This document shows positions 35,613-40,940 of a DNA stretch of 64,000 bases, in pieces. This stretch comes from Prolixibacteraceae bacterium. Its GTDB lineage: Bacteria; Bacteroidota; Bacteroidia; Bacteroidales; Prolixibacteraceae. Position numbers and translations under genes: made by a program. The stretch lies in the NCBI GenBank assembly GCA_019459525.1, contig JAIBEY010000084.1, positions 31,358-95,357 of the forward strand, given 5' to 3'. The stretch's first letter is position 1, and every line of letters starts with the position of its first letter. The notes below the pieces were generated by a model. That model saw only the letters and a list, made by a program, of their open reading frames with translations, searched no databases and was not told the DNA's origin.

Positions 35613-37874
35613 TCAGCTTTTTAGCGATTGAGTAAAATCATTTTGAATCTTCATCATATTCGAAGTGTAAATCAGGATATTTCTGGTCTCGCCCAATATG
35701 GTCATTACCAGCATACTGTTTTTTGTCCCGATTTCATTCTTCTTGATGGACTTGATCAGGTTTTTACGTGCCTCTTTATTCAGTTCAATAATCACCGACT
35801 GCTCTTTGTAAATTTCCTCCAGTTGTTCGTTGTTGTTATTGTCGAGTGTCCGAATAACCAGGTTGATGTATTTATCCACTTCGGCAACCAAACCATTTAA
35901 TTCTTTGGCCTGTATATCGGTCAATGGTTTGTGGTTGTTATCCACATGCTTATAAACCGGATCGATCAGGAAAGAAATACAATGGGCAATTTCTTTCATA
36001 TAGTCGAGAACCAGAATGTAATAATGAGTGGCCTCAACGGTGTCGGGCGAAGGTAATGCTGATATGGTTTGATAGGTATTACTTCTCTTCTTATCAAGTT
36101 TCTTCTCCAGATCGATTGATCGCTGAAGTTGTTTCCGCAAACCCTTATGATCTTCTTTGAGCAGAAGCTGGATCGTATTGCTGTACAAACTGTTGACTTC
36201 GTTTAACGTCTTTACAATTCCATTGTTGCATTTTTCGAACATTGTTTCGGCCGAAATTAAATCTTCAACCTCTTTCTCCGATTCATTTTTTTCGCTTTCA
36301 CGTTTCTTATGGGTAAGATGGGTACGGTAAAAGGCAAATACAGCTAAGCCTGCAAGTATGATTACCCCAATAGCATTGGTATATCCAAGGAATGTTGATA
36401 GCAGAAAAGCAACCGTGAAAGCCGCAAGTCCGGTAACAAACCATCCGCCAATTACGGTAAAAACACCTGTAATCCGGTAAACAGCGCTATCCCTTCCCCA
36501 GGCTCCATCAACAAGCGAGGTACTCATAGCAACCACAAACGTAACATAGGTGGTTGAAAGTGGCAGTTTAAATGATGTACCAATAGCAATCAGGATAGAG
36601 GCAACCATCATGTTTACCGCCGCCCGTACCAAATCGAACATGGGTGGGTCTGATTCCTTTTTAAGGCTATTCTCCAATTCGGTTCTGTCGAAACGACTAC
36701 TGATTTTTTCCACAATTGAAGCCGGAATGACATTACTGAAGAAAGTAGAAGTATTTACAACACGCCGAACCAGGTACCGTGAAAAAGCCGATGATCCGAA
36801 ACGCTCCGAACCTTCATCCTGACGGCTGAGTTTTAATTCGGTATCGGCAACGGTCTGTGCCTTCTTCGAAAACCATAAAGTAAGGACCATGATAACACCT
36901 GCTCCAAACAAAAAGTACATGGGCGTTTTAATTTCAGCAAGCAAATTACCCATTAATAAGTCGGATCCATGGTTGGCCACATATGTTTTATAGGCTTCAA
37001 ACCCGGCAAGTGGAACACCTATAAAATTAACCAGGTCGTTTCCGGCAAATGCCATGGCCAAGGCAAATGTTCCGGCCAATACTACAATCTTAAGAGGATT
37101 TACCTTGAAAATCCAACTGAAAACCTGTAAAAGAACTGTCCATAAAACAAAACTTCCAATAATGATTGCAATTGTATTTTTCTGTATCACCTGGTAGTTT
37201 TCATCGGTCATAAAAGAAGCATCCTTCAATCCTTTTATCAGGATAAAATAGGTAATGGCCGAAATGGCCAGGCCGCCCCACAACGATCCGTAGTATTTGA
37301 TTGTTTTTTCAGTATTAAAACTAAAAAGTAAACGACTGATCCATTGAATAACTACCCCAAAAACAAATGAGAACGCCACAGATAATAATATTCCTGAAAT
37401 GATTGCAAGTGCTTTGGACGAATTGATAAAATCACCGATTTCAGCAATTTTCTCCACACCATCAATAACGATTGTTGCGCCATCACCAACCTTAAAAAGT
37501 GCCATTCCCACCGCGGCGCCAAGCAACCCGAAGACGAGCGAGACCGTGGTTGAAGTGGGCAATCCGAAGGTGTTGAAGAAATCGAGCAGGAGCACATCGG
37601 TAAACATGACGGCCAGGAAAATAATGATCACTTCGGTAAACAGGAAATACTGCGGATGAAAAAGTCCTTTACGGGCGACCTCCATCATACCGTTGGAAAG
37701 CAGTGCACCGGCAAGAATCCCTAAACTGGCAATAATCATGATTACCCTACGTTTAGCCACTTTGGAACCAATGGCCGAGTTCAGAAAGTTAATGGCATCA
37801 TTAGCAACACCAACCATCAGATCGGAAATAGCTAAAAGAAACAGGACAGCAATAAAAAGTACATAAATACTCAT
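35613..37874 (-). CDS. Inorganic phosphate transporter (Pit) with C-terminal PhoU-like domain
   Basis: GVANDAINFLNSAIGS, FGLPTSTTVSLVFGL, AFAGNDLVNFIGVPLAG, LPLSTTYVTFVVAMSTSLVDGAWGRDSAVYR; C-terminal helical PhoU/DUF47-like region. Confidence 0.93.
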   Translation of the reverse strand: MSIYVLFIAVLFLLAISDLMVGVANDAINFLNSAIGSKVAKRRVIMIIASLGILAGALLSNGMMEVARKGLFHPQYFLFTEVIIIFLAVMFTDVLLLDFFNTFGLPTSTTVSLVFGLLGAAVGMALFKVGDGATIVIDGVEKIAEIGDFINSSKALAIISGILLSVAFSFVFGVVIQWISRLLFSFNTEKTIKYYGSLWGGLAISAITYFILIKGLKDASFMTDENYQVIQKNTIAIIIGSFVLWTVLLQVFSWIFKVNPLKIVVLAGTFALAMAFAGNDLVNFIGVPLAGFEAYKTYVANHGSDLLMGNLLAEIKTPMYFLFGAGVIMVLTLWFSKKAQTVADTELKLSRQDEGSERFGSSAFSRYLVRRVVNTSTFFSNVIPASIVEKISSRFDRTELENSLKKESDPPMFDLVRAAVNMMVASILIAIGTSFKLPLSTTYVTFVVAMSTSLVDGAWGRDSAVYRITGVFTVIGGWFVTGLAAFTVAFLLSTFLGYTNAIGVIILAGLAVFAFYRTHLTHKKRESEKNESEKEVEDLISAETMFEKCNNGIVKTLNEVNSLYSNTIQLLLKEDHKGLRKQLQRSIDLEKKLDKKRSNTYQTISALPSPDTVEATHYYILVLDYMKEIAHCISFLIDPVYKHVDNNHKPLTDIQAKELNGLVAEVDKYINLVIRTLDNNNNEQLEEIYKEQSVIIELNKEARKNLIKSIKKNEIGTKNSMLVMTILGETRNILIYTSNMMKIQNDFTQSLKS

Positions 37875-38086
37875 AGTGTAGATATTAAGATCATTTTCCG
37901 TATTAATTTACGGGGTAGAATAACCACCCTCTTTACATTCTAAATACAAACTGGCCTTATAAATCTGACAATCAATAAACTGATTTTCCACCTGGCCGTA
38001 AAATTCGCCGCAAAATTATAGAAATATATACGCAAAGCTCAAATTATAGTTAATCAAAATAGGGTACTTTCGGGTAGAATGTCACA

Positions 38087-38136
38087 ATTAACTGTTTTGT
38101 AACATCCATTAATCGTTTTGTAATATCTATTGTTAA
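38087..38136 (+). promoter_or_regulatory. 11-bp-phased hexamer array 1 (Pho-box-like)
   Basis: ATTAAC 38087, TGTAAC 38098, ATTAAT 38108, TGTAAT 38119, TTGTTA 38130. Confidence 0.4.
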
Positions 38137-38300
38137 ATTAGTGTAGATTTCGATTCCATCCGTTATTCGGACCGTATCAAAGGGATATTTTCCACGTCCC
38201 CGATTTAATCATTCCTTAACTTAGCCAAACCCACAATTAAAACTCTATTTATTTGATTAATTGACGATTTAGTGATCAGAATTCATTACAGACCTGTTAA

Positions 38301-38339
38301 AGTAATTATTCTGTAATCAATATTTAATTTGATTGTAAT
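38301..38339 (+). promoter_or_regulatory. 11-bp-phased hexamer array 2 (Pho-box-like)
   Basis: AGTAAT 38301, TGTAAT 38312, TTTAAT 38323, TGTAAT 38334: exact 11-bp period. Confidence 0.45.
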
Positions 38340-38459
38340 TGTAAAACCGCAGCTTTGCAAAAGTAATTAAAGGATTTTAACAGATTCTCCGATTCAAATT
38401 TTAATTAACTTGGCATCAGTTAATAGCTACGGATGCAAAAACATAACAAGAAACAGATA

Positions 38460-39140
38460 ATGAGCGATACCTATAAAATACTGGTTGTTGACGATGAGAA
38501 AGATCTGTGTGAGATCCTTCAGTTCAATCTTGCAAGCGAAGGTTTTGATATCGAAGTTGCTTATTCCGGAGAAGAAGCACTGACGAAATCCATAGAACGC
38601 TTTGACCTTTTGTTGCTCGACGTTATGATGGGTGGAATGTCGGGATTTAAATTGGCCGACAAAATCAGGAAAGAACTTGGCCTATCTGTCCCGATCATTT
38701 TTTTAACTGCCCGCGAAACCGAAAACGATATGCTTACCGGCTTTAATGTGGGTGCCGATGATTACCTTTCGAAACCCTTCTCGATTAAAGAACTGGTTGC
38801 CCGGATTAAAGCAGTACTCCGTCGTGGAAAATCGGTTGAACTCAAGCCTAAGCTAATTACCGTTGACGCAATGGAGCTTGATTTAAACAGAAAATCAGTT
38901 GTTATTAACCATGATCCTGTTTTACTAACCCGTAAAGAGTTTGAAATATTGGTGATGCTCATTACAAACAAAGGCAAATACCTGAGCCGTCAGGAAATTC
39001 TCGACCGCATCTGGAGCGACGATGTGATTGTGACCGAGCGAAATGTTGACGTAAACATTGCCCGGTTAAGAAAGAAGATTGGCGATTACGGAAACTACAT
39101 CAAAGGCCGATCTGGTTACGGATACAGCTTTGAAAATTAA
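38460..39140 (+). CDS. OmpR-family response regulator, PhoB-like
   Basis: ILVVDDEKDLCEILQFNL, LLLLDVMMGGMSGF, PIIFLTARETENDML, C-terminal winged helix VTERNVDVNIARLRKKIGDYGNYIKGRSGYGY. Confidence 0.93.
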   Translation: MSDTYKILVVDDEKDLCEILQFNLASEGFDIEVAYSGEEALTKSIERFDLLLLDVMMGGMSGFKLADKIRKELGLSVPIIFLTARETENDMLTGFNVGADDYLSKPFSIKELVARIKAVLRRGKSVELKPKLITVDAMELDLNRKSVVINHDPVLLTRKEFEILVMLITNKGKYLSRQEILDRIWSDDVIVTERNVDVNIARLRKKIGDYGNYIKGRSGYGYSFEN

Positions 39141-39167: not shown

Positions 39168-40940
39168 TTGATCGTTCAGCGTACCTTCCGGAAAAGTATA
39201 TTCCTAAATTTTTTCATCATCTTTTCAATTTTTACGGTTTCTGTCCTGCTGTATCAGTACGATCGCGAAAAAGATTACCGGATAAAGCAACTCGAACTAA
39301 CACTCGATAATGTTTCAGAGGTTGCGCATCGGTATATTGAACACCGGAACATATTTGATTCCGGCGATTTCAGATCACTTGATACATTGAAAAGCCTGAT
39401 TCCCATTTCAAACACGAGATTAACGGTTTTAAATTATTCAGGGGAAGTTCTTTACGATAGTTTTGTTCCCGAATACAGCAAGCTGGAAAATCACCTCTCG
39501 CGCCAGGAAGTTCAGCAGTCCCTTAAAGAAGGGCGCGGATCTTCTATCCGGCTATCGAGTTCTACCAACCAGGAATTCTACTATTATGCCAAAGATTATA
39601 AAAATTACATCATTCGTTCTGCAGCAATTTACAACATCGAAATAAAAAACTTCCTAAAAACGGAACGGATCTTTCTGCTTTTTGCCCTTTTCCTGTTTGT
39701 ACTGATGTGGGTGTTGCTCCATTTTACCACCTTACGGTTGAGCGAATTTATAGTCAAACTCAAAGACTTTGCCCTGAAAGCCGGGAATAATGAAGACATT
39801 GAAGTGTTGGACAGCGACTTTAAGGATAATGAATTGGGAATCATTCGCAAACAGATCATTCAGATTTACGATAACCTTAAAAAGACCAAAGACGAGCTAA
39901 CCATTGAACAGGAAAAACTATACGACCACCTACAGGTACTCGACGAAGGAATTGCTATTTTTTCGCCCCAGAGGAACAAAATATTAGCGAACAGTCACTT
40001 CATTCAATTCATTAATATCATTTCGGAGGCATCGACTATAACTGCCGAAAACATTTTTCAAATACCCGAATTTGAAAGGGTCGTTAATTTTTTGGATCAC
40101 CAAATCCGGAAACAGGAACAGCCTGCCGGGAAAGAGCTGTCGCAGTTGCTCTACAATATCGAGAAGAACGAAAAATATTTCCAGATCAAATGCATCGTAT
40201 TTTCGGACGAGAGTTTTGAAATCATGATTAGTGATATTACGCGTCCCGAAAGGCGTCGGCTACTCAAGCAACAGTTGACTTCGAATATTGCACACGAGTT
40301 AAAAACGCCGCTGGCGTCCATTAAAGGATACCTCGAAACGATTCTGAACAACCCAAGTATTCCGGCAGAGAAACAAACCTATTTTATGGAAAAGGCTTTT
40401 GCGCAGTCGGAACGCCTGACTGATTTGCTTAACGACATTTCGTTGCTCAACAACATCGAAGATGCCGGAGAATTGTTTGAATTTAAGCAACTGCCACTCC
40501 GTCCGGTTATTCGTGATGTGATTGAGAACCTTCGCGTTCGTATGACACAGAAACACATAAACTGCCACGTTGAGGTAGGCTCCGAAGTAACCATCAACGG
40601 AAACGAATCGTTGCTTTTTTCAGTTTTTCAGAACCTGCTTGAAAACTCGATAAATTATGCGGGCGAAAACATCACTGTTCTTATTTCCAAATACCTGGAA
40701 GACGAGAAATACTACTACTTTAAATACTCCGATTCCGGACCTGGAATTTCAGAAGAACACCTCCCCCGTATTTTTGAGCGTTTCTACCGGGTCGATTACG
40801 GAAGATCGCGTGAAACGGGTGGTACCGGGCTGGGACTTTCGATCGTAAAAAATGCAGTCCTGCTGCATAAGGGCGAGATTTCAGCACGGAATAAAGCTGA
40901 AGGTGGTTTGGAATTTTTATTCTCCTTATCAAAAAAATGA
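39168..40940 (+). CDS. Sensor histidine kinase, PhoR-like
   Basis: Two TM segments, SNIAHELKTPLASIKGYLETIL, FSVFQNLLENSINYAG, SDSGPGISEEHLPRIFERFYRVD, GGTGLGLSIVKNAV; TTG start. Confidence 0.93.
   Translation: MIVQRTFRKSIFLNFFIIFSIFTVSVLLYQYDREKDYRIKQLELTLDNVSEVAHRYIEHRNIFDSGDFRSLDTLKSLIPISNTRLTVLNYSGEVLYDSFVPEYSKLENHLSRQEVQQSLKEGRGSSIRLSSSTNQEFYYYAKDYKNYIIRSAAIYNIEIKNFLKTERIFLLFALFLFVLMWVLLHFTTLRLSEFIVKLKDFALKAGNNEDIEVLDSDFKDNELGIIRKQIIQIYDNLKKTKDELTIEQEKLYDHLQVLDEGIAIFSPQRNKILANSHFIQFINIISEASTITAENIFQIPEFERVVNFLDHQIRKQEQPAGKELSQLLYNIEKNEKYFQIKCIVFSDESFEIMISDITRPERRRLLKQQLTSNIAHELKTPLASIKGYLETILNNPSIPAEKQTYFMEKAFAQSERLTDLLNDISLLNNIEDAGELFEFKQLPLRPVIRDVIENLRVRMTQKHINCHVEVGSEVTINGNESLLFSVFQNLLENSINYAGENITVLISKYLEDEKYYYFKYSDSGPGISEEHLPRIFERFYRVDYGRSRETGGTGLGLSIVKNAVLLHKGEISARNKAEGGLEFLFSLSKK

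Follow-up and report, generated by a model that had tools for sequence, protein, structure and literature searches.

Here we report on the intergenic region between phoB and a divergent gene for a Pit-family phosphate transporter in the genome of a Prolixibacteraceae bacterium. The region lies in a 64-kb stretch of DNA, the whole of which is called the window here, and measures 558 bp if phoB is taken to start at its first ATG and 588 bp if it starts at the next one. It is rich in A + T (69%) and contains two arrays of simple, TGTAAT-type hexamer words, two further dimers and a predicted promoter box (Table 1).

The two genes downstream of the arrays, which a previous sequence-only reading had called a PhoB/PhoR-like pair, are phoB and phoR of the Bacteroidota type according to curated models, both with scores above the cut-off; phoB is the sole gene in the genome that exceeds the NF053854 cut-off. 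The same reading had described the transporter as a Pit-PhoU protein, a designation that agrees with its Pfam match and with the predicted structure of its C-terminal tail. The 209 residues of the tail (structure model pLDDT 90.7) are predicted to adopt a PhoU fold: ranks 1-17 of a Foldseek search were PhoU, PhoU-like proteins or an unnamed structure with a PhoU fold (TM up to 0.79), and the score against the Pfam PhoU family (PF01895) was 23.4 bits, marginally below the cut-off of 23.5. A profile search of the tail against solved structures gave no match.

Table 1. Genes and putative regulatory features around the phoB-Pit intergenic region (window coordinates)
Feature	Position	Strand	Details
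Pit-family phosphate transporter	35613..37874	-	PF01384; predicted C-terminal PhoU-fold domain, residues ~545-753
Distal array 1	38087..38124	+	Dimers ATTAACtgtttTGTAAC (38087) and ATTAATcgtttTGTAAT (38108), 10-bp step between them; faces phoB
Intermediate dimer TTTAATcattcCTTAAC	38204..38220	+	97 bp upstream of array 2; -96/-97 dimer also in L039, L041, L042 and L045
Inverted Pho-box dimer TTTAACaggtcTGTAAT	38285..38301	-	Abuts array 2; match of model R1; same offset in 8/8 subclade members
Putative proximal Pho box (array 2)	38301..38339	+	AGTAAT 38301, TGTAAT 38312, TTTAAT 38323, TGTAAT 38334
Predicted -7 promoter box CAGCTTTG	38350..38357	+	Consensus TAnnTTTG, one mismatch; TTTG 14 nt past the 4th hexamer
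phoB, response regulator	38433..39140 (alternative start 38463)	+	NF053854, 320.7 bits (cut-off 270)
phoR, sensor histidine kinase	39168..40940	+	NF053855, 684.9 bits (cut-off 500)

Results

All nine hexamers listed in the sequence-only reading (9/9) were found in their places. The 11-bp direct repetition expected of a Pho box is exact throughout the four hexamers of array 2, as had been claimed. In array 1 the steps are 11, 10, 11 and 11 bp and the fifth unit (TTGTTA) is degenerate, so that this array is better taken as two 11-bp dimers; the claimed phasing holds within each dimer and fails at the single 10-bp step between them. In dinucleotide shuffles of the 558-bp region, runs of four [AT][GT]TAA[CT] units were never obtained across periods 7-15 (0/5000), and pairs of units at a distance of 11 bp, of which six were observed, had a mean of 0.07 and a maximum of 4 (5000 shuffles), so the observed repeats exceed the null. 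On both strands of the whole 64-kb window, at least three units in a row at periods 7-15 occur solely in array 2.

Promoters recognized by sigma-A in Bacteroidota have the sequence TAnnTTTG at -12 to -5 (PMC9723704; also PMC7366714), which places array 2 at about -61 to -23; the start of transcription is predicted near 38362. The last unit of the array ends 10 nt ahead of the -7 box. The distance from the end of the fourth unit to the TTTG was exactly 14 nt in 21 of 23 sites, and in the other two TTTA stood at this place. TTTG, which played no part in the selection of the sites, occurs at the 14-nt position in 0.9% of shuffles. With this spacing, the array is predicted to overlap the -35/-33 region ahead of the core promoter, as an operator would.

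The usual gene order in relatives from the Prolixibacteraceae is porin-pstS-pstC-pstA-pstB-phoU-phoB-phoR, or phoU-phoB-phoR, and in L039 the porin-pst-phoU-phoBR order occurs together with a divergent Pit gene. Since pst-phoU separates the promoter from phoB in most relatives and some loci lie on the minus strand, a raw alignment of upstream regions was unsuitable; the regions were re-oriented by strand, and the first gene of the operon was used as anchor. The best four-unit match reached a score of at least 27 at period 11 in 24 of the 27 upstream regions and in none of them at periods 8-10 and 12-14 (0/27), in a set of mutually related genomes whose counts are non-independent events; 0.02% of shuffles reached this score. 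By this phylogenetic footprinting, the period-11 array is conserved before pst, phoU or phoB in 20+ relatives. In the window and in its sister L045, the porin-pst-phoU block is absent between the promoter and phoB and the promoter is retained. The array 2 hexamers of the two are identical (4/4), and the differences are confined to the spacers. The gene order in relatives points to a loss of the block, not a gain.

Models of the array (R1) and of the array with spacer and TTTG (R2) were built from the sequences of 20 relatives, with the window and L045 held out. The training sites were the best four-unit matches upstream, a choice that inflates the conservation of the hexamers and leaves the spacing to TTTG unaffected. 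In the 5.5-Mb genome, R1 gave its top rank to array 2 and the next to array 1, and four of its top seven matches fell within the phoB-Pit intergenic region. With R2, the array 2 site was the top site of the genome (E 8.8e-7, 31.4 bits; runner-up 16.6 bits). Promoters of the pst type score up to 55 bits, so the array in the window may be a weaker site. The exact pattern TGTAAT-N5-TTTAAT-N5-TGTAAT matched the array 2 site and two weak sites.

Across genomes, the element lies upstream of genes of the phosphate regulon. A scan of the family gave matches at E up to 0.01 in 47 of 60 genomes, and of 30 loci retrieved from it, 22 were located directly upstream of porin-pstS or phoU-phoB. At 70 named phoB loci, nearly all from Bacteroidales (Bacteroides, Prevotella, Proteiniphilum and others), 28 of 46 matches were positioned upstream of phosphate genes, defined as at most 400 bp upstream and on the same strand as porin, pstS, phoU, phoB or Pit, with 2.4% of positions expected as background (p 5e-34). 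Inspection by eye showed a TTTG at the 14-nt spacing in Bacteroides finegoldii, Bacteroides rodentium, Proteiniphilum and Prevotella. Among 148 genomes sampled across the phylum there were just three other matches at E up to 1e-3, none of them adjoining reference phosphate genes. Because of this sample, the suggestion that the motif defines a Pho box of the Bacteroidetes was dropped at the level of the phylum; the 70 phoB loci sustain it at the level of the Bacteroidales.

The sequence-only reading had also advised a scan ahead of other phosphate genes in this genome. Array 2 ranked first, weaker candidates were found on contigs C40, C71 and C110, and a pst-like operon on C34 lacked an array. 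At C40, a reverse Pho-box-like array is situated just upstream of a gene for a VTC-domain polyphosphate polymerase (G000:C40:12354-12385, L109), which could be a repressing arrangement. The C71 candidate is a porin with a reverse Pho-box dimer; the porin is accompanied by a partner protein of unknown function both here (G000:C71:122848-125177, L110) and next to Pit in the sister genome (L045:3744-6074). At C110, the gene of a TonB receptor is divergent from a lectin-domain gene (G000:C110:4053-4137, L124), and in the region they share, an inverted repeat (CGCTACGATTACA...TGTAATCGTAGCG) encloses Pho-box-like units. A small secreted CarboxypepD_reg-like protein of ~115 residues is preceded by a Pho box with 14-nt spacing in seven loci, one in this genome (C17:8024; G000:C17:7637-8083, L112) and six in genomes of the family (L152, L156, L160, L164, L166, L168). 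The proteins of the relatives are 42-53% identical to the C17 protein, and TTTA replaces TTTG in two loci. This unstudied protein is likely a member of the phosphate regulon, as judged from its upstream sequence. A further array of four TCTAAT/TCTAAC units with an exact 11-bp period (G000:C93:13463-13507, L118) precedes a different OmpR-type regulator pair and probably serves as operator for another response regulator that has a hexamer of its own.

No match to PhoU was found in the genome (99.99% complete), nor any canonical PstB above the cut-off, so that the phoU and canonical pst genes of PstSCAB-PhoU-coupled signalling were both missing from it. The best PstB-like gene (332.6 vs 343.2 bits) belongs to the divergent pst-like operon on C34 (G000:C34:13700-17400, L070), which has neither PhoU nor a Pho box; the gene just upstream resembles an O-acetylhomoserine sulfhydrylase by sequence. 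This operon was rejected as the missing pst on account of the absent array, its 32-48% identity and this neighbour, and its substrate may be other than phosphate. Among the 31 genomes of the family with a clear phoB, a free-standing PhoU was lacking in all six that have no phoU or pst ahead of phoBR (6/6) and in none of the others (0/25), a comparison that ignores relatedness and includes one genome that is 88% complete (G016) and one whose sole match is weak and lies in a longer protein (G025).

Discussion

We interpret the intergenic region as a PhoB-activated, autoregulatory promoter of phoB-phoR with a tetrameric Pho box of a kind shared at the level of the Bacteroidales, and we assign this reading a probability of about 0.9. 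The Pho-box interpretation of the sequence-only reading is upheld by the specificity for period 11, the constant spacing to the -7 box, the association with pst, phoU and phoB, and the first rank in the genome with a held-out model. PhoB is the likely binder of the arrays.

When phosphate is scarce, PhoR would phosphorylate PhoB, and PhoB molecules would occupy the four 11-bp repeats of array 2 head to tail. The most downstream PhoB, located where a -33 element would be expected, could then bring RNA polymerase to the -7 box of the TAnnTTTG type, and phoBR would thereby activate itself. Together with the inverted dimer, the distal dimers (among them those of array 1) may serve as further PhoB sites of a complex operator. 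The ancestral promoter probably drove porin-pstSCAB-phoU-phoBR, as it does in relatives; with the block gone, it would drive phoBR directly.

In the subclade of the window, dimers are found at constant offsets from array 2: an inverted one at -16 (8/8 genomes) and direct ones at -96/-97 or -106/-107. A direct dimer at -193/-194 is present in the window and in L045, and the second dimer of array 1 has conserved counterparts at -194 in L045 and at -266 in L039. These extra dimers look like added binding sites rather than promoters because no TTTG occurs at activating distance where this was read. They also bear on the possibility that the divergent Pit gene is under the control of array 1, with PhoB repressing or activating it. 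Array 1 is positioned between Pit and array 2, and other Bacteroidales have a Pho box in activating orientation just upstream of Pit (L182, L210, L216, L219, L228). However, array 1 faces phoB and is directed away from Pit, for which reason direct activation of Pit was rejected as the leading reading, and the probable Pit -7 box (TAATTTTG) has no Pho-box hexamer 14 nt before it. Oriented dimers moreover persist upstream of the porin in loci where the neighbour is TauE and not a divergent Pit gene (L040, L041, L046, L047). The oriented dimers were therefore assigned to the pho operon and not to Pit; by orientation and spacing, neither array appears to be placed to activate Pit, and control of Pit through array 1 is unlikely.

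It is much less probable still that the arrays are bound by another response regulator of the OmpR family and that PhoB is a mere neighbour. The genome encodes about a dozen OmpR-type regulators, an 11-bp TCTAAT array adjoins another response regulator/kinase pair (G000:C93:13472), and an OmpR-type regulator of Riemerella anatipestifer is reported to bind a similar motif (PMC9603813). Other regulators would not explain, however, why the motif follows phoB, pstS, phoU, porin and Pit across the Bacteroidales, and PhoB of Bacteroides fragilis is reported to bind the pstC promoter of its own genome directly (PMC3547664). A chance product of simple words in an AT-rich region is already refuted, as far as sequence can show, by the shuffles, by the restriction to period 11 in relatives and by the constant 14-nt spacing.

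The autoregulatory phoBR promoter proposed here would belong to a lineage that runs the PhoR-PhoB-Pho-box circuit with neither free PhoU nor canonical Pst, and in which the PhoU-fold tail of Pit could signal PhoR off when phosphate is plentiful. We consider this scheme doubtful, and the Pit-PhoU fusion is a purely hypothetical substitute for PhoU; relatives that retain pst-phoU have the same Pit tail. With PhoU and Pst apparently lost and the PhoBR circuit kept, this lineage can serve as a natural test of phosphate sensing by PhoR. A four-repeat element at a constant distance from the promoter precedes the phosphate genes of numerous related bacteria from the gut and the environment, and the rule (four 11-bp units, 14 nt, TTTG) should make the phosphate regulon of Bacteroidales, including gut Bacteroides and Prevotella, predictable from sequence. 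It would also indicate where an OmpR-type activator is placed relative to the unusual -7 promoter of the phylum.

Comparison with known systems

A published Pho-box motif or PhoB operator for Bacteroidota was not found in the searched literature, and since subscription journals lie mostly outside its coverage, the novelty of the element is provisional. In B. fragilis, PhoB of the PhoRB system (BF1575/BF1576) is reported to be needed for growth at low phosphate and for induction of pstC, and to bind a 512-bp fragment of the pstC promoter in EMSA; the accessible text of that study gives no binding motif, and pst forms a separate locus there, with pstS head to head with pstCAB-phoU (PMC3547664). 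The R. anatipestifer regulator, PhoP, is reported to bind its own promoter, and its motif TTTAACA resembles one unit of the arrays described here; PhoPR controls virulence and many membrane genes, and neither a repeat architecture nor a phosphate role is described in the accessible part of that report (PMC9603813). The PHO regulon of Flavobacterium johnsoniae includes a phoBR cluster with an OprP porin, and many of its members are induced by phosphate starvation; the cluster contains TonB receptors and lipoproteins, and the accessible text reports no operator motif (PMC8115612).

PhoB of Escherichia coli binds 11-bp direct repeats in tandem, and its operator overlaps the -35 position (PMC4415409, PMC3348028). 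The unit of the Pho box varies among species (PMC4415409); the sequence found here, CTGTAAT, is one base apart from the E. coli unit CTGTCAT, which is not a general criterion, and a different unit does not disqualify the element because the name Pho box is also used for GTTCACC of Streptomyces. With the phoA and pstS Pho boxes of E. coli, the promoter described here shares 11-bp direct repeats, an OmpR-type PhoB and a predicted operator over the -35-equivalent position. Unlike these, it has TGTAAT/TTTAAT units, usually four in number, a TAnnTTTG -7 box at a constant 14 nt to TTTG and, in the subclade of the window, additional inverted and distal dimers.
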